61,887 bases of DNA from an uncultured Bacteroidia bacterium. GTDB taxonomy: Bacteria; Bacteroidota; Bacteroidia; Bacteroidales; UBA932. The notes under the pieces are model-generated. The model was not told the DNA's origin and made no database searches. It worked only from the letters and a program-made list of their open reading frames with translations. This document shows positions 14,869 through 47,672 of the stretch, piece after piece; positions within the stretch are counted from its first letter, which is position 1, and each line of letters begins with the position of its first letter. The stretch spans positions 1-61,887 of the forward strand of contig CACWLD010000015.1 in the NCBI GenBank assembly GCA_902761655.1, in the 5' to 3' direction. The position numbers and the translations under genes were made by a program.

Positions 14869-14892
14869 AGTTTTTAACATAGTTGTAAACAA

Positions 14893-16755
14893 CTATTTAA
14901 GCAATTCGCGACTGCGGGCGATGAAATCCGCCAGGTCCTTGCCCTTGAGCATTCCGTTCTCCAGCAAAGCAAGGTCAGCCACCTGCTTGAGAAGGGTGCC
15001 GTTGTTCTCCCTGTCGGCCCAAATCCTGGCTATGACGGGATTCTGCATATTGACTATAATGTTGTAAGCCTCAGGCATTTCCTTGTAGTAGTTCATACCT
15101 CCGCTAAGCGCGCTCATCTCCCTGAAGCGGCGCATAAACTCGCTCTGGGTGATGGTTACCGGGGCGGCCTGCTCGCCAAGGTTCCTGGCTTCTACATAGT
15201 AGTCGTTTCCGGCGGGGAGGACTGACTTGAACAGTTCGTCAAGGGTCTTCTTGTCCTCTTCGCTCATTTCCGGCTTAACCTCTTCCTGCTTGGGGATCAG
15301 GTTCTCCGCATTGTCGGAGTCCACGCGGCAGAAGCGGCAGTCCTCCATCTTCTGCTCCAGCAGGTTCACGAAGTGTGAGTCCAGTTCGCAGTCCAGAAGG
15401 AGCACGTCGTATCCCAGGTTCTTTGCCTGCTCTATGCGTGAGTATTGCTCCTGGAGGTTGGTGGCATACAGGAATACCACCTTCTTGTCCTTGTCCGTCT
15501 GGGTAGGGGCCACGGCGTTCTTGTACTCGTCAAGGCTGAAGTACTTGCCTTCAGTGTTCTTGAGGAGGGCGAACTTGACGCCCCTTTCGCCGAACTTCTC
15601 GTCGGACAGCATACCGTACTCTATGAACAGCTTGATGTTGTCCCATTTCTCCTCCAGCTGTGCCCTCTGCTCCTTGAAGATCTCCTCAAGCCTGTCCGCA
15701 ACCTTGCGGGTGATGTAGGTGGAGATCATCTTCACGTTCCTGTCGCTCTGCAGGTAGCTGCGGCTTACGTTTAGAGGGATGTCCGGGGAGTCTATGACTC
15801 CGTGAAGAAGGGTGAGGAAGTCAGGCACAATGTTGTCCACGTGGTCCGTGACGAACATCTGGTTGCAGTACAGCTGTATCTTGTGCTTGTCAATGGCCAT
15901 CCTCTCCTTGATCTTGGGGAAGTACAGCACACCTGTAAGGTTGAACGGATAGTCCACGTTCAGGTGGATGTAGAACATAGGATCTTCCTCCGTGGGGTAA
16001 AGGTCACGGTAGAACTTCATATAGTCCTCTTCCTTGAGGTCTGCGGGGGCCTTTGTCCAGATGGGCTCTATGTTGTTGATGACGTTGTCCTTGTCCGTGT
16101 CAACGTACTTGCCGTCCTTCCACTCCTGCTCCTTTCCAAAGATGATCTTGACAGGCATAAACTTGCAGTACTTGTGGAGCAGCTCCTGGATCTTTGTGCG
16201 GCTTGCGTATTCTGCGCAGTCATCGTCCAGGTACATTGTGATCACGGTGCCGCGGGTCTTCTTGGTGCTTTCGCCCATCTTGTACTCCGGAGAGCCGTCG
16301 CAGGTCCACTTGACTGCCGCTGCGCCTTCCTTCCAGGAAAGGGAGTCTATGGTCACCTTCTTGGAAACCATAAAGGCGGAGTAGAATCCCAGTCCAAAGT
16401 GGCCTATTATGCTGCCAATCTGGTCCTTGTATTTCTCCAGGAACTCCCCGGCGGAGGAGAATGCAATCTGGTTGATGTATCTGTCAACCTCTTCTTCCGT
16501 CATTCCCACGCCGCTGTCGCGTACCTTGAGGATCTTCTTCTCTTCGTCAAGTTCAATGCGGATGTCAGTGTTGCCAAGGTCTCCCTTGAAGTCTCCGCTT
16601 GATGCCAGCGCCTTGATCTTCTGCGTTGCATCGACGGCGTTGGCCACTATTTCCCTGATGAAAATGTCCTTGTCAGAATAGAGGAATTGCTTGATTACAG
16701 GAAAGATGTTTTCAGTTGTTACGCCAATCTTTCCCTTGGTTTGAGTACTTGCCAT
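14893..16755 (-). CDS. htpG: Molecular chaperone Hsp90 (HtpG)
   Basis: ATP-dependent chaperone, 620 residues (normal length). The GHKL ATPase site shows IREIVANAVDA (catalytic Glu), DSGVGMT and GHFGLGFYSAFMV. The middle domain keeps GVIDSPDIPLNVSRSYLQ, the signature containing the conserved Arg. It has its own leader with a 12-bp hairpin that buries an AAGGAG just before the ATG. A downstream hairpin separates it from uraA. Confidence 0.97.
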   Translation of the reverse strand: MASTQTKGKIGVTTENIFPVIKQFLYSDKDIFIREIVANAVDATQKIKALASSGDFKGDLGNTDIRIELDEEKKILKVRDSGVGMTEEEVDRYINQIAFSSAGEFLEKYKDQIGSIIGHFGLGFYSAFMVSKKVTIDSLSWKEGAAAVKWTCDGSPEYKMGESTKKTRGTVITMYLDDDCAEYASRTKIQELLHKYCKFMPVKIIFGKEQEWKDGKYVDTDKDNVINNIEPIWTKAPADLKEEDYMKFYRDLYPTEEDPMFYIHLNVDYPFNLTGVLYFPKIKERMAIDKHKIQLYCNQMFVTDHVDNIVPDFLTLLHGVIDSPDIPLNVSRSYLQSDRNVKMISTYITRKVADRLEEIFKEQRAQLEEKWDNIKLFIEYGMLSDEKFGERGVKFALLKNTEGKYFSLDEYKNAVAPTQTDKDKKVVFLYATNLQEQYSRIEQAKNLGYDVLLLDCELDSHFVNLLEQKMEDCRFCRVDSDNAENLIPKQEEVKPEMSEEDKKTLDELFKSVLPAGNDYYVEARNLGEQAAPVTITQSEFMRRFREMSALSGGMNYYKEMPEAYNIIVNMQNPVIARIWADRENNGTLLKQVADLALLENGMLKGKDLADFIARSRELLK

Positions 16756-38716: not shown

Positions 38717-40114
38717 TTATTGGTTGATGTATTCTATTCCGTTATAATATTTCACTACCGCCTGCTTGATCAGGTAATTGAACAGGCTGTTCATCTCGTC
38801 GGCCTTGGCTTTGAGGTAATTGTTGCCAGCAGTCTGGAACTCCAGGGGGGATACCAGACCCTGGTCCAACTTCTTGAGGTTCAGGGTGTAGGCCTCTTCC
38901 TGCACCTCAGCCTTGCGCTGAGCCTGCTGGAAGGCCGTGGCTGCGCCATCGCGGTCCTGGATGGCGCGCCGCACCTCGCTCTCCACGTCGCGGCGCTTCT
39001 GGTCCAGCTCGGCGCTGGCGCGCGTCAGGGAGTTCCTAGCTTTGGAGATTCTGGAAGCGCGGCTCATACGGCCCCAGATAGGGATGGAAATGCTCAACTC
39101 CACATACTCGCCACCGTTGTTGCGGAACTGGTTTTGGAATGCGGCGGTCTGGGAACCCTGGTAGGTATAGTAGCTGGTGCTCCAGCCGGCGTACAGGCCT
39201 ACGGAGGGCAGGAGCTGCCATTTGGCGGTGCTCAGCTCGCGCTTGGCGTTCTGCTCCTGCCAGGAGGCTATCTGTACAGCCGGGTTATGGTCCAGGGCGT
39301 AGTCTACAATGGCCTCTGTGGAGAGATTCCCGGTCGAGCCGGGTATGACGCTGATTCCGTCATACCCTACCTGGTCGGGTATCGCGGTCACTATTTCCAG
39401 ATCCTGGTCAAGAGGCCAGAACATAAGGTCCGCAAGGGTCATTTTGTGGCTCTGGTACATATTGTAGGTATTGGTCAGGTCGTACTGCCTGTCAGCCAGG
39501 TCAGCTTCCATCTGGACCACGTCAGCGTGGCCTTTCTGACCCAGTTCCTCCTGGCGGCGGGCCTTGGCAAGGGACTGCTCCGCAGTAGCGACCTGCTCTT
39601 TGTAAACGTCGGTCAAACGCTTGTAATACACCACGTTATAGTAGGCTTCCATAACGGCCAGGCAGATGTCCGCCTCGGCCTGCCGCTCCTGGGATTCTGC
39701 TATGAGCATTCCCGTCTTGGAGATCCTCAGGTTGTTCACGGCCTTGAATCCGTCAAAGAGGTCGAAGCCTGCGCTCACGCTGTAATTGTTGTGGAATGAG
39801 GTGGTGTTGAAGTATGTGTTTGTCTGAGGGTCGATGCTTCGGCCAAAGTTGTAGTAAGCGTAGGTTGAGGCGCTGATGTTCGGGGTGAAGAGGGCAAGCG
39901 CAGCATCCCGCCTGGCTATGCGGGCATCGTTGCCCGCGGCCTGCTGGATGCGCAGCTTGGTGGAGTTGGAAATGGCGTACTCCATACACTCTTTCAAAGA
40001 CATCTGACCGTCATAGCCAGTTGGGGCGGCCATTGCCGGCTCCTGGGCCTGCACCATTGCGGCAGACCCAAGGAATCCAGCATAAACTAAAAGTAATCTT
40101 AATCGTTTGATCAT
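38717..40114 (-). CDS. TolC-family outer-membrane efflux protein
   Basis: A 465-residue channel subunit with signal peptide (...GSAAMVQAQ) and the two helical-hairpin repeats of the family (LKECMEYAISNS..., and the second around AIVDYALDHNP). First gene of the export operon. The ATG at 40114 gives a proper signal peptide; the earlier in-frame start does not. About residues 246-265 (DQVGYDGISVIPGSTGNLS) are encoded by two palindromic repeats facing each other at 39325-39383, placed in the linker between the two halves. A decayed half-copy may lie at 40009-40018. Confidence 0.9.
   Translation of the reverse strand: MIKRLRLLLVYAGFLGSAAMVQAQEPAMAAPTGYDGQMSLKECMEYAISNSTKLRIQQAAGNDARIARRDAALALFTPNISASTYAYYNFGRSIDPQTNTYFNTTSFHNNYSVSAGFDLFDGFKAVNNLRISKTGMLIAESQERQAEADICLAVMEAYYNVVYYKRLTDVYKEQVATAEQSLAKARRQEELGQKGHADVVQMEADLADRQYDLTNTYNMYQSHKMTLADLMFWPLDQDLEIVTAIPDQVGYDGISVIPGSTGNLSTEAIVDYALDHNPAVQIASWQEQNAKRELSTAKWQLLPSVGLYAGWSTSYYTYQGSQTAAFQNQFRNNGGEYVELSISIPIWGRMSRASRISKARNSLTRASAELDQKRRDVESEVRRAIQDRDGAATAFQQAQRKAEVQEEAYTLNLKKLDQGLVSPLEFQTAGNNYLKAKADEMNSLFNYLIKQAVVKYYNGIEYINQ
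39325..39383. repeat. Pair of 26-nt palindromic repeats inside the TolC-family gene
   Basis: Two copies in opposite orientation, 39325-39350 and 39358-39383, separated by 7 nt. Each begins (outward) CGTCATACCC and has an inner palindrome (CCCGG/CCGGG or ATACCC/GGGTAT). They belong to the family also found at 41162-41187 and 42102-42152. The reading frame stays open through both. Confidence 0.8.
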
Positions 40115-40142
40115 ATAGAAAGTCGTATTCGCCACAGATTAT

Positions 40143-40158
40143 AACACTGGCTGTGCCA
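40143..40158 (-). promoter_or_regulatory. Candidate sigma-54 promoter of the tolC-macAB operon
   Basis: On the complement a perfect -24 element TGGCAC, then five bases, then GTGTT, which matches 3 of 5 positions of the -12 consensus TTGCW including the G. Transcription would start near 40133, leaving a 20-nt leader. A sigma-54 activator gene and its presumed sites lie just upstream. The weak -12 half lowers confidence. Confidence 0.5.
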
Positions 40159-40209
40159 CTTTGCGTAACTAATTAATAATAAGGTTATTATGTGCTACAA
40201 GGAAATAGA

Positions 40210-40247
40210 AAAAAGTGTAAAGGGCTTTACAACTCTTTACACTTTTT
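40210..40247 (-). terminator. Terminator of the kinase-regulator operon, overlapping activator sites
   Basis: Perfect 13-bp stem AAAAAGTGTAAAG / CTTTACACTTTTT with a 12-nt loop, followed leftward by six Ts. The loop and stem are made of CTTTACA units that are also the activator motif. Confidence 0.75.
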
Positions 40248-40263
40248 GCTTTACAGTTTACAG
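40216..40263 (-). promoter_or_regulatory. Presumed enhancer sites: TGTAAAG-GG-CTTTACA palindrome and half-sites
   Basis: Full palindrome at 40216-40231, then half-sites CTTTACA at 40235 and 40249 and TTTACAG at 40257. The palindrome is about 85-100 bp upstream of the predicted sigma-54 start, a normal enhancer distance. The same palindrome recurs in front of the regulator gene. Confidence 0.6.
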
Positions 40264-40264
40264 T

Positions 40265-41140
40265 CTATCTGAAGCGGAGTTCAAAGACTGTTTTTCCCGC
40301 GTCACTGCTCAGCAGTTCAATTGAACCGTTGTGGTTGCGCATTATCTGGCGGGCAAGGGAGAGCCCTATGCCGGAGCCTTCTTTCTTGGTGGTGTAGAAC
40401 GGAATGAAGATCTGCTCCTGGGCGGATTCCGGAATCTGTTCTCCGTCATTTGCAACGCGGACAACCACTTCGTCCCCCGGGCTCATAAAGGCACTCACAT
40501 CTATATGTCTGGCCCCTGCCTGAAGGGCGTTCTTGATAAGGTTGATCAGAATCTGGGAAATCTGGCCTTCGTCAGCGTAAATCATCAGGTCCGGCTCCTT
40601 TGCGCTGAAGGTGAACTGAGCGCCGCTGGAGGCGGCGAGTTCGCTGTTCAGTGCAAACACTTGGTTTATAAATTCCTGTAAATCAAGTGCTTTACGTATA
40701 GGCTTGGCTACACCGGAAAGTTGGCGGTATGTCTGCACAAAGTCTATGAGGTTCTTGGAGCTGTCCGATATTGTTTCCAGGCCGGCCTTGATGTCCAGTT
40801 CGCTGTGACCTTTGTCATCCACGGACTTTGCCATTGCGTCAGAGAGAGAGGCGATGGGGGAGACCGTATTCATTATCTCGTGCGTGAGCACGCGTATGAG
40901 CTTGGTCCAGGAGTCCTGTTCGTGCGCCTGGCGCTGTTTTTCGAAAATGGTGCGGATACGGTTAAGCGTGCGGTTGAACTTGTTCTTTTCCTGGAACCGG
41001 AAGTTCAGCTCCCCGTCCTCCAGTGCATCCATCATATAGGTAACCTTCTTGATATCCTTGTGCCGGGTATGGATGGAGGCTGCCAGCCACGCCAGAAGCG
41101 CGGCTGCAAGTGCAATCAGTATGATACTCCAGACAGGCAT
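40265..41140 (-). CDS. Sensor histidine kinase without a large sensor domain
   Basis: A 291-residue kinase with one N-terminal transmembrane helix (about 4-22), a short linker and then the dimerisation/phosphoacceptor box LIRVLTHEIMNTVSPI (His87). The ATPase domain shows N-box NLIKNALQAG, G1 VRVANDGEQIP and G2 GSGIGLSLARQIM. There is no recognisable periplasmic sensor, so the signal is probably membrane or cytoplasmic. It lies 46 nt after the NtrC-type regulator gene, with a palindromic repeat in the gap, and is surely its partner. Confidence 0.9.
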   Translation of the reverse strand: MPVWSIILIALAAALLAWLAASIHTRHKDIKKVTYMMDALEDGELNFRFQEKNKFNRTLNRIRTIFEKQRQAHEQDSWTKLIRVLTHEIMNTVSPIASLSDAMAKSVDDKGHSELDIKAGLETISDSSKNLIDFVQTYRQLSGVAKPIRKALDLQEFINQVFALNSELAASSGAQFTFSAKEPDLMIYADEGQISQILINLIKNALQAGARHIDVSAFMSPGDEVVVRVANDGEQIPESAQEQIFIPFYTTKKEGSGIGLSLARQIMRNHNGSIELLSSDAGKTVFELRFR

Positions 41141-41161
41141 TTTCCGTCAGACAGGCTATTC

Positions 41162-41187
41162 CGTCATTCCCGGCTTGACCGGGAATC
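41162..41187. repeat. 26-nt palindromic repeat between regulator and kinase genes
   Basis: Begins CGTCATTCCCGG; the core ATTCCCGG/CCGGGAAT is a perfect 8-bp palindrome with a 5-nt loop. Its end shares one base with the regulator's stop codon. Confidence 0.8.
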
Positions 41188-42557
41188 TATAAATTATATT
41201 TTTTCAGTTTTGCGTAAAGGGTGGGGCGGCTGACGCCAAGCAGCTTGGCGGCCGCGGAAATGTTGCCGCGGCTGCGCTGCATTGCGTCACGCACAAGCCT
41301 CTCTTCTTCCGCGTCGTTGCGTAGCGGATTCTCCGGCCTGGCATCCAGCTGGATGTCCTGGGCCGTGAGTTCCCTGCCGTCGGACAGGATTACCGCCTTC
41401 TCTATGCAGTTCTGCAGTTCGCGGATGTTTCCGCCCCAGCGGTGGCTCTTCAGCACCTCGCCCGCTTCCGGCGTGATGCCGTCCAGCTGGCGGTGGTACT
41501 TCTGTGCGAAGCGCTCCAGGAACAGTTCCGCCAGCGGAACTATGTCTTCCTTGCGCTCGCGCAGTGGTGGCAGCGCAAGGCGTACGGTGTTGATGCGGTA
41601 GAAGAGGTCCTCACGGAAGCGGCCTTCGCGCACCAGGGCCTCAAGGTCCATATTGGTGGCGCATATCAGCCTGATATCCACTGGTTTGGCTTCGGAGCCG
41701 CCCACGCGGACAATGCTGCGGCTTTGGATAGCCCGCAGCAATTTGGCCTGCAGGTGCGGCGGTATGTTGCCAATCTCGTCCAGGAAAAGCGTGCTGCCGT
41801 CGGCCTGCTCAAACTTGCCGATGTGGTCTGTGTGCGCATCGGTGAAAGCGCCTTTTACGTGGCCGAACAGCTCGCTTTCAAAGAGCGTTTCCGTGATGGC
41901 GCCTGCATCCACGGCCACCATAGGCTTGCCTTTGCGCAAGCTATGGGCGTGGATTTCCCGCGCCAGCACGTCCTTGCCCGTACCGTTTTCCCCGGTGATG
42001 AGCACCGTGGCATCGGTAGGGGCAATCTTGTCCAGGGTCTTGCGTATAGCTTTCATCGCAGGAGAGGTGCCCCAGAACATATGGTCCCCGGAGCCTTCGC
42101 CCGTCATACCCGTCCAGACGTCTTTCGTCATACCCGGCATTGACCGGGTATCCGGCCTCATAGCCTTCAGCGCCTTGTCGCGAGCGCCGGTGAGGACTTC
42201 AATCAGCTTGTCGTTCTCCCACGGCTTCACAATGAAGTCGAATGCGCCGCGCTTCATCCCCTCCACTGCAAGGGCGATATCGGCGTATGCCGTAAACAGC
42301 ACAACCTCCACTTCCGGGGCCATCTTCTTGATTTCCCCCGTCCAGTAGAGGCCTTCGTTTCCGGTGTTGATGCTGGTGTTGAAGTTCATATCCAGCAGCA
42401 CCACCTGCGGACGGAACGTCTCCAGTTCAGGAACCAGCGTGGCGGGCGATGGAATTGTCCTCACCTGCGCAAAGTGCATCGGCAGCAGGATCTCCAGCGC
42501 GCGGCGGATGCCGGCGTTGTCGTCCACCACCAATATTTTCCCGTTCTTAGAAGCCAT
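41187..42557 (-). CDS. Sigma-54-dependent response regulator, NtrC family
   Basis: A 456-residue enhancer-binding protein. The receiver domain has Asp11/12 region VVDDN and the phosphoacceptor Asp56 (VVLLDMNF). The AAA+ domain has Walker A GENGTGKD, the sigma-54-contact loop GAFTDA (GAFTGA variant), Walker B LFLDEIG. A Fis-type helix-turn-helix ends the protein (NISAAAKLLGVSRPTLYAKLKKY). Residues about 134-154, the linker between receiver and AAA+, are encoded by two palindromic repeats. Its promoter is overlapped by a palindrome that probably binds this protein. It should activate the tolC-macAB operon downstream. Confidence 0.93.
   Translation of the reverse strand: MASKNGKILVVDDNAGIRRALEILLPMHFAQVRTIPSPATLVPELETFRPQVVLLDMNFNTSINTGNEGLYWTGEIKKMAPEVEVVLFTAYADIALAVEGMKRGAFDFIVKPWENDKLIEVLTGARDKALKAMRPDTRSMPGMTKDVWTGMTGEGSGDHMFWGTSPAMKAIRKTLDKIAPTDATVLITGENGTGKDVLAREIHAHSLRKGKPMVAVDAGAITETLFESELFGHVKGAFTDAHTDHIGKFEQADGSTLFLDEIGNIPPHLQAKLLRAIQSRSIVRVGGSEAKPVDIRLICATNMDLEALVREGRFREDLFYRINTVRLALPPLRERKEDIVPLAELFLERFAQKYHRQLDGITPEAGEVLKSHRWGGNIRELQNCIEKAVILSDGRELTAQDIQLDARPENPLRNDAEEERLVRDAMQRSRGNISAAAKLLGVSRPTLYAKLKKYNL
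42102..42152. repeat. Palindromic repeats inside the NtrC-type regulator gene
   Basis: A 27-nt copy at 42126-42152 (core ATACCCGG/CCGGGTAT, 6-nt loop) preceded by a half-copy CGTCATACCCG at 42102-42112. Both are translated in-frame into a linker (DTRSMPGMTKDVWTGMTGE). Confidence 0.8.
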
Positions 42558-46928: not shown

Positions 46929-47672
46929 TTATTGATTTTCTAAGGTTATGGTGCAGTCCCTGTAAATATTGTCAACAATAAGGAGGCTGAACGGGGCAAT
47001 AGTATAGGTCTGAGGCTCTTCTCCTTGAATAACGCTGTAAGAGAGAGTGAGCGCGTCAGGGCGGGAGTGGTAAATCCCGTTGATTATGATCTCAGTCTCA
47101 AGGTTTGTTTCTGGCACAATGACGGGAATGACGAATGACTTGCCAAAGTCTATCTTTGTAGGCTCTCCGCCGCGTCCCATAAACGCCGCCATACCAAAAA
47201 ACTGGTTCAGTTGCTCTTGGGATGTTATCTTGGTAGGGAGGACGTCCTCTATGTCATCATTACGCTTGTAGTAGTTGCTTGCCTGGGTATATGGCACCCT
47301 GAAAGGCCTATAATCAGTAATCTTTCCGCCTTCTACCTTGACCTCAGTTACACCCGGAGTACCCATATCCTGGTATGATACTCTGTACCATCCGTCGCCC
47401 AGAGACTCTATTCCGTCCACCTGGGAAACGTTTCCGGGACCATCCTGGAAACCGGTGCGGAATGCCCAGTAGGAATATGTGTCCGGGTAATCCGCCTCCC
47501 ATAATGAAGAGAGGATACCGTCAGACAGGGACTTTTTAAGAAGGGCGTCCGTCATCTCCGTACGGCCCAGGACGGCATTGTAAAAGTTTTCAATTATCTG
47601 TTTATCTGAACGGTTACTGCCGCAGGCTGCCAAGACAACGGCTGCGGCCAGAATTGCGCTTATTCTTTTCAT
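46929..47672 (-). CDS. Lipoprotein of unknown function, DUF3828-like
   Basis: A 247-residue lipoprotein (lipobox VLAAC, Cys near 17). The N-terminal part (SDKQIIENFYNAVLGRTEMTDALLKKSLSDGILSSL...) resembles DUF3828-type domains; the C-terminal part (FVIPVIVPETNLETEI...YTIAPFSLLIVDNIYRD) is a beta-rich module often found after it in Bacteroidetes. No catalytic motif is seen. The ATG at 47672 is preceded by a perfect promoter box, so the longer N-terminal reading is rejected. Likely operon with the GH3 gene. Confidence 0.6.
   Translation of the reverse strand: MKRISAILAAAVVLAACGSNRSDKQIIENFYNAVLGRTEMTDALLKKSLSDGILSSLWEADYPDTYSYWAFRTGFQDGPGNVSQVDGIESLGDGWYRVSYQDMGTPGVTEVKVEGGKITDYRPFRVPYTQASNYYKRNDDIEDVLPTKITSQEQLNQFFGMAAFMGRGGEPTKIDFGKSFVIPVIVPETNLETEIIINGIYHSRPDALTLSYSVIQGEEPQTYTIAPFSLLIVDNIYRDCTITLENQ

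Follow-up and report, generated by a model that had tools for sequence, protein, structure and literature searches.

Two palindromic repeat families share protein linkers, and one overwrites a regulator motif, in rumen Bacteroidales

The window analyzed here is a 61,887-nt stretch of DNA (positions 1 to 61,887 of contig CACWLD010000015.1, assembly GCA_902761655.1) from an uncultured Bacteroidia bacterium of the order Bacteroidales (UBA932), and it forms contig 15 of a 2.0-Mb genome (G000; 63 contigs, 93.7% complete). In it, a TolC-family outer membrane protein gene and an NtrC-type response regulator gene carry short palindromic repeats that are translated in frame. These repeats, labeled R1 in the present analysis, turn over quickly at linkers that they share with a second family, labeled R2; native sequence at coding sites is usually replaced by the repeats and not merely interrupted; and R2 overwrites a conserved motif of the regulator family without a change in length. 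On balance, we favor a reading in which repetitive extragenic palindromes (REPs) of this kind spread largely by copying guided by short homology, with selection retaining the copies that lie in frame and in linkers. As far as the literature searched shows, three points are new: the sharing of linkers by two families in many species, the replacement of native sequence there, and length-neutral overwriting; REP overwriting of coding sequence and intragenic REPs in rumen Bacteroidales were not found in the open-licence titles and abstracts listed, which is weak evidence of absence.

Among the linker peptides of these regulators, efflux proteins and enzymes are DNA repeats translated in frame, and protein similarity resting on repeat-derived peptides such as VIPGLTGN, CHPERSEGS or RSFAGAQDD should therefore not count as homology. 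The spread of CGTC REPs is a stated open question in the cited parts of the 2013 survey by Di Nocera et al. (PMC3733652), to which R1 and R2 bring differences between close relatives and, in the overwriting, a sharp footprint. The genomes compared are mostly metagenome-assembled, and the genus sample comprises 61 of them; the named relatives are uncultured Bacteroidales or Bacteroidia, mostly indicated as coming from the rumen or another ruminant stomach, and the nearest sampled genomes over the window locus are G284 (90% identical) and G311 (86%).

Anatomy and in-frame copies of R1

The R1 pattern is GTCAT-x6-loop-x6'-ATC. Among 30 aligned copies, 22 of them distinct, the eight-pair stem has 98.3% of its cells paired, and the outer two pairs are A-T and T-A, each in 21 of the 22 distinct rows. 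One stem pair is found as G-C, C-G, T-A and A-T and another as C-G and G-C, these two variable pairs being the ones left free in the loose search pattern; the stem covariation score is 0.318 against 0.071 (sd 0.020) for shuffled data, a value reached in 0/500 shuffles. GTC is invariant in 30 copies from the window's own genome, in part through the construction of the search pattern, and the base before it is C in 94/126 copies and T in 19/126. A loop of 5 nt is typical (4–5 nt in 74/113 copies, 6 nt in 39/113). Where the reading frame is DARS...GMT, the loops are of 6 nt, since 5 nt would bring a TGA into frame. Two-copy clusters in the multi-genome cluster list, many of them orthologous, are head-to-head in 26 of 27 cases; the pairs of the window's own genome, read from match coordinates, comprise three head-to-head, three tail-to-tail and two head-to-tail.

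Judged by this anatomy, which fits, R1 is a member of the CGTC-tagged REP superfamily. The cited parts of PMC3733652 describe such REPs, their presence in Bacteroidetes, their intragenic copies and the lack of a dedicated transposase; R1 has their unpaired CGTC tag, their 8-bp stem with outer A-T pairs and their loop, mostly of 5 nt. Like them it has copies inside genes and no association with a transposase gene, sought as Y1; it also forms head-to-head dimers, though not clearly as the prevailing arrangement. It is nearest to CGTC-2 by its stem of 8 and loop of 5. R1 appears to differ in its tail, where the base after ATC is T in 87/126 copies and C in 30/126 (the first C of the tail being fixed by the search), whereas most CGTC REP tails in that text fit CCA, and does differ in its frequent 6-nt loops, loop lengths other than 4–5 nt being noted there for some species. 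The sharing of linkers across many species, the replacement of native sequence and the length-neutral overwriting likewise set R1 and R2 apart from the REPs described in those parts. The same source places Neisseria dRS3 and the Rickettsia palindromic elements RPE-4 and RPE-6 in the superfamily, considers CGTC families possibly nearing extinction, and reports different REPs at about one site in recB of two Xanthomonas species, a precedent for sites common to different REPs. By description, RPE-4 and RPE-6 resemble R1 and R2 as in-frame hairpin repeats in unrelated proteins; R1 and R2 differ in their occurrence in rumen Bacteroidales, in linkers compared over 81 orthologues and in the overwriting of native sequence.

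A sequence-only reading of the window had proposed a MITE-like (miniature inverted-repeat transposable element) palindrome family of one lineage, spreading into tolerant linkers, with all loci inside about 3 kb; both its observation and its interpretation hold in part. R1 counts and orthologue comparisons bear out that the palindromes form an amplifying family, variable from species to species and lying in frame in tolerant linkers. The family is, however, genome-wide and not unique to the three sites first noticed, with 24 strict matches (control 0) and 37 loose matches (reversed control 1) in the window's own genome. Nor is it confined to one lineage, since R1 matches occur in 40 of the 61 genus genomes (0 to 83 matches at ≤2 mismatches, zero in 21 genomes) and the superfamily spans phyla according to the cited parts of PMC3733652. 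Within the window, CGTCATWCCCGG occurs five times at ≤1 mismatch against 0.54 expected, and five occurrences were reached in 0/100 shuffles.

Context was read for 30 of the 37 loose matches, which represent 25 of the roughly 27 clusters (a number taken from a reading of match coordinates); the other seven had no locus. Nine of the 25 clusters lie in frame inside open reading frames (ORFs), namely those of the TolC protein, a PF04018 membrane protein, a DHquinase-EPSP synthase fusion, a 4Fe-4S protein, an ABC-transporter-type ATPase, an AIRS-domain protein, a CCDC81/HU protein, a polyprenyl synthetase (at its C-terminus, possibly native) and one ORF without a Pfam hit. The regulator is a tenth gene with an in-frame R1 copy, which the genome-wide R1 search missed because of its 6-nt loop.

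All repeat sites first named in the window are present, although the upstream element of the regulator linker is only a 5' half and the second TolC copy is degenerate, its CCGG core missing (CCCTACCTGGTCGGG). That the insertions in both proteins fall at linkers is upheld by Pfam positions and the TolC structure model, which place them between domains or helices: the regulator copy lies between Response_reg (8–122) and Sigma54_activat (163–327), and residues 255–269 of the TolC model (mean predicted local distance difference test score, pLDDT, 77) form its sole low-confidence stretch apart from the N-terminus, the repeat peptide having pLDDT <50 in the single predicted model. The regulator model is poor (predicted template modelling score 0.35), adds little and was set aside. 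Since the repeats took the place of native residues, the 17–20 added codons first proposed shrink, relative to the two nearest relatives, to a net gain of 11 residues in TolC (spacer 29 vs 18) and of 8 in the regulator (456 vs 448 aa).

Linker turnover and the R2 patch

The second family, missed in the sequence-only reading as was overwriting without length change, is found as GTCATYCTGAGCGNAGCGNAGRATCT (≤1 mismatch) in 29/61 genus genomes, with a maximum of 91 matches and three in the window's own genome. Its outer stem changes pairwise, with TCT/AGA in 32 and CCT/AGG in 16, such that 48/52 are paired.

Both families occupy the same sites. In 81 regulators, the window's included, the REC-AAA linker holds R1, R2 or no recognised repeat peptide (41/81), states being scored with our own peptide regular expressions, which decayed copies escape. 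The two trees used give 29 and 31 changes for these states, where shuffling gives 34.2 on average and never fewer than 28. For the AAA-HTH linker (66 scored, 15/81 rows unscored) the count is 16–17 changes against a shuffled mean of 20.0 and minimum of 17, and for the TolC loop (60 scored, 40 of them without a recognised repeat peptide; 21/81 unscored) it is 14 against a mean of 18.2 and minimum of 14; some peptides are shortened by the anchors (L040, L082). Because the counts, which do not tell gain from loss, lie near the shuffled values, linker states track the tree weakly, those of the REC-AAA linker least. The stems change at fixed coding sites as well: paired changes separate close relatives at one site in the regulator (L074/L077) and in TolC (L047/L048), and one stem pair of the REC-AAA linker copy is A-T in 12 and G-C in 10 of 31 sequences.

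Filled and empty sites were compared over 95 stretches with 139 repeat clusters, of which 56 lack a REP-free counterpart, and some counterparts scored REP-free hold decayed or third-type repeats, as in L076. For the 83 clusters with a repeat-free counterpart the net length difference ranges from −48 to +79 nt and is a multiple of three in 64. In the window's TolC gene, a 59-nt head-to-head R1 dimer replaces about 26–28 nt of G284 and G311, a net gain of 33 nt, and the nearest relatives lack the extra residues. This is not so for the regulator, where, judging from sequence, both nearest relatives seem to hold decayed copies of the linker repeat rather than true empty sites, and the window's copy is thus probably old. 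One 4Fe-4S linker has three states: G000 carries an R1 array there, G284 an R2 array and G311 a linker of 53 nt in which no repeat was recognised. Beside a tRNA-like stretch, the repeat of G284 is orthologous to that of G000 and carries a paired stem change, and G311 has no repeat there.

The clearest replacement concerns the motif ..EKAVILS[DE]G..LT.. after the AAA domain of the regulators, which aligns without gaps with NtrC1 (4l4u) and ZraR (1ojl). In 11/81 regulators the DNA of this motif is R2 with 0–2 mismatches over 26 nt and unchanged length, whereas 2/81 show 4 mismatches and 68/81 at least 6. The match is one of codons, extending to synonymous positions: the motif serine is encoded by AGY in 11/11 patched vs 7/68 native genes (p=3.5e-9). 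Patched genes are scattered, requiring 11 changes on two trees (L068 and L111, which have 4 mismatches, being left out on one of them and in the enlarged count below) and 9 changes for a strict set of nine without L047 and L050, the latter near native sequence. A search of 400 genus genomes with the R2-patch pattern found matches in 21 (control 0); of the 22 newly matched places, 20 were readable as regulators, nine of them identical over 690 nt to earlier rows, and with the 11 new genes the 22 patched and 65 unpatched rows require at least 14 changes.

The native motif resembles the repeat that replaces it. With the REC-AAA linker masked, windows running no further than the motif, and L068, L111, L069, L083 and L116 set aside, the motif spot is the best partial R2 match in 36/65 unpatched regulators and ranks within the top five of some 2,000 windows in 54/65; permuted R2 patterns favor the spot in 0.3% on average and 13% at most. 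Flanks of 90 nt upstream and 18 nt downstream show no excess likeness among 10 of the 11 patched rows (p=0.32, 0.34), and since sequence outside the patch is not common to patched genes, the exchanged tract is about repeat-sized. R2 is present elsewhere at the locus in 5/11 patched vs 11/66 unpatched genes (Mann-Whitney p=0.015, Fisher p=0.044).

Possible routes of spread

In the copying process that we favor, a nascent strand or single-stranded repeat piece would pair with a chromosomal stretch already resembling a repeat end, and repeat sequence would then be written into that stretch. Matching at both ends would give a length-neutral change, and matching at one end a loss of native sequence with variable net length; copying between hairpin arms would give paired stem changes. 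The single-stranded piece, annealing at the replication fork, is an intermediate that we infer, and it would account for both overwriting and insertion. Selection would purge events that break the frame or damage a domain, so that surviving copies would be located within linkers, at the ends of genes and in intergenic DNA. We suggest more tentatively that the spread may be transposase-free, REP hairpins being copied onto near-matching sequence, even conserved coding sequence, by homeology-guided templated repair. If so, the replication machinery, and not a dedicated enzyme, would be the source of copy number, dimers, stem covariation and half-repeat arrays, and the same few DNA words would serve repeatedly for building protein linkers. 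Gene conversion was reportedly raised for REPs in a 1988 review. The mutation of quasipalindromes by template switching, as described in the cited parts of PMC8794818, makes and restores hairpin stems and produces paired changes in one event, a likeness to R1 and R2; it is described there for switches close to a single locus, whereas the R2 patch needs a donor elsewhere.

Several observations weigh against this account. Length-neutral differences make up just 6 of the 83 filled/empty comparisons, and since four of these lie at the regulator motif, overwriting is firmly shown in a single gene; as a further case the polyprenyl synthetase C-terminus is ambiguous, with a similar near-palindrome in G284 and an atypical loop. 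Certain sites have the look of plain insertion. In G284 a 66-nt R2 dimer lies at the stop codon of TolC, bordered by TA on either side, with no native sequence lost; of the 19 length differences not divisible by three, 8 fall at 28–34 nt, as in whole-unit insertion; and R2 is a true insertion beside the native motif in three regulators (L069, L083 and L116, scored native in the 81-regulator count). The AAA-HTH linker carries tree signal, its 16 changes being fewer than in all 200 shuffles, and R1 counts correlate weakly with counts of Y1 transposase genes (Spearman 0.35, p=0.006, n=61).

That clean G284 insertion, the clustering at 28–34 nt, the count correlation and the presence of Y1_Tnp matches in 46/61 genus genomes (three in the window's own) are what non-autonomous transposition would predict, by a Y1/HUH enzyme like the REP-associated tyrosine transposases (RAYTs) or by another transposase with preferred short targets and junctions later blurred by deletions and point mutations. 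We nonetheless regard this route as doubtful, as zero net length at a conserved motif is impossible by insertion and R1 and R2 were not found in the examined flanks of 30/33 Y1 loci, Y1 being the sole transposase type sought. The R1-rich genomes G001 and G014 lack a Y1 match, although they are 74% and 70% complete and the presence/absence association is not significant (Fisher p=0.11). The MITE-like label of the sequence-only reading finds no support, as the junctions read show no consistent target duplication (a single site is bordered by TA on either side) and no parent transposase, sought as Y1, was found beside R1. Identity with GTAG REPs and REPINs (paired REPs) mobilised by RAYTs was also rejected; these are likewise small hairpin repeats with dimers and variable copy number, but the R1 tag is CGTC and copies lie away from 30/33 Y1 genes.

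It is quite unlikely that a few events were spread by transfer, with homologous recombination moving filled or patched alleles between species: TolC-loop dimers are alike in the window and in distant species and absent from the two nearest relatives, which speaks for transfer, yet the flank test at the motif patch is negative. Retention of the hairpins for a function, as RNA structure or useful linker peptide, would explain the strong stem covariation, orthologous coding sites included, as selection; it is very unlikely, given that repeat-free orthologues are common at the REC-AAA linker and TolC loop, that many copies have decayed, that R1 and R2 interchange, that the TolC peptide is modelled at low confidence, and that template switching alone can yield paired changes according to the cited parts of PMC8794818. 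At some sites the native coding sequence is indeed similar to repeat ends, but chance resemblance or convergent coding sequence is barely conceivable in view of the codon-level match, synonymous positions included, and of the patch search (0 in the control vs 21 genomes among 400); as the origin of the whole family, chance is ruled out by the shuffled windows (0/100) and reversed patterns (0 and 1 vs 24 and 37).

Window features and further repeat types

Coordinates of the repeat copies and their bearer genes are collected below.

Table 1. Repeat copies and associated genes in the window
Feature	Positions	Strand	Remarks
R1 copy in TolC gene	39325..39350	-	25-nt core 39325-39349 plus C of the CGTC tag; one imperfect pair; in-frame reading VIPGSTGNL
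Degenerate second R1 copy	39358..39383	+	head-to-head with the 39325-39350 copy; in-frame reading IPDQVGYD; not present in G284, G311
Perfect R1 copy	41162..41187	+	between regulator and kinase genes; shares one base with the regulator stop codon (41187-41189); absent in G284, G311
5' half of R1 copy	42102..42113	+	regulator linker; one mismatch to CGTCATWCCCGG
R1 copy	42126..42152	+	REC-AAA linker; perfect stem, 6-nt loop; coding-strand reading DTRSMPGMT
Native, unpatched NtrC-family motif (VILSDGREL)	41368..41393	-	8 mismatches to R2 in the window gene
TolC-family outer membrane protein (PF02321)	38717..40135	-	bearer of R1 dimer
Histidine kinase (HATPase_c)	40265..41140	-	
NtrC-type response regulator	41187..42557	-	bearer of linker repeat

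An isolated one-mismatch match to the repeat head (CGTCATTCCCGT) lies on the minus strand at 47122–47133 of the window, where the hairpin scan gave no second arm.

One Y1 locus, L169, has R1-like copies on both sides of its Y1-type gene, about 350 and 1000 nt from where the match begins. The gene also has hairpins of its own nearby, AACGTCC...GGACGTT on either side (L169:1258-1290 and 2360-2395, approximate positions), which are unlike R1 and R2 and possibly form a repeat family of that gene; R1 or R2 copies flanking Y1 genes were rejected as a pattern, with 30/33 loci lacking them.

Further repeat types occur in the relatives. The regulator and TolC linkers of L076 and L079 hold a third type, GTCATTTCGAGCGAAGTCGAGAAATC, and an intermediate with a TCC/GGA outer stem. 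G284 contains four R2 arrays of 18- or 21-nt half-repeat units, all in long ORFs with the frame kept; the half-unit arrays precede or trail R2 dimers (L272:5939-6027, 14891-14971 and 16303-16371; L277:1604-1673), an example being NEPQDDNEPQDD. In the window's own genome, contig 16 carries a repeat-rich intergenic stretch adjoining tRNA-like sequence (L209:14819-15500, about 38.8–39.5 kb), which holds R1 and R2 together with longer pieces found again on many contigs of G284.

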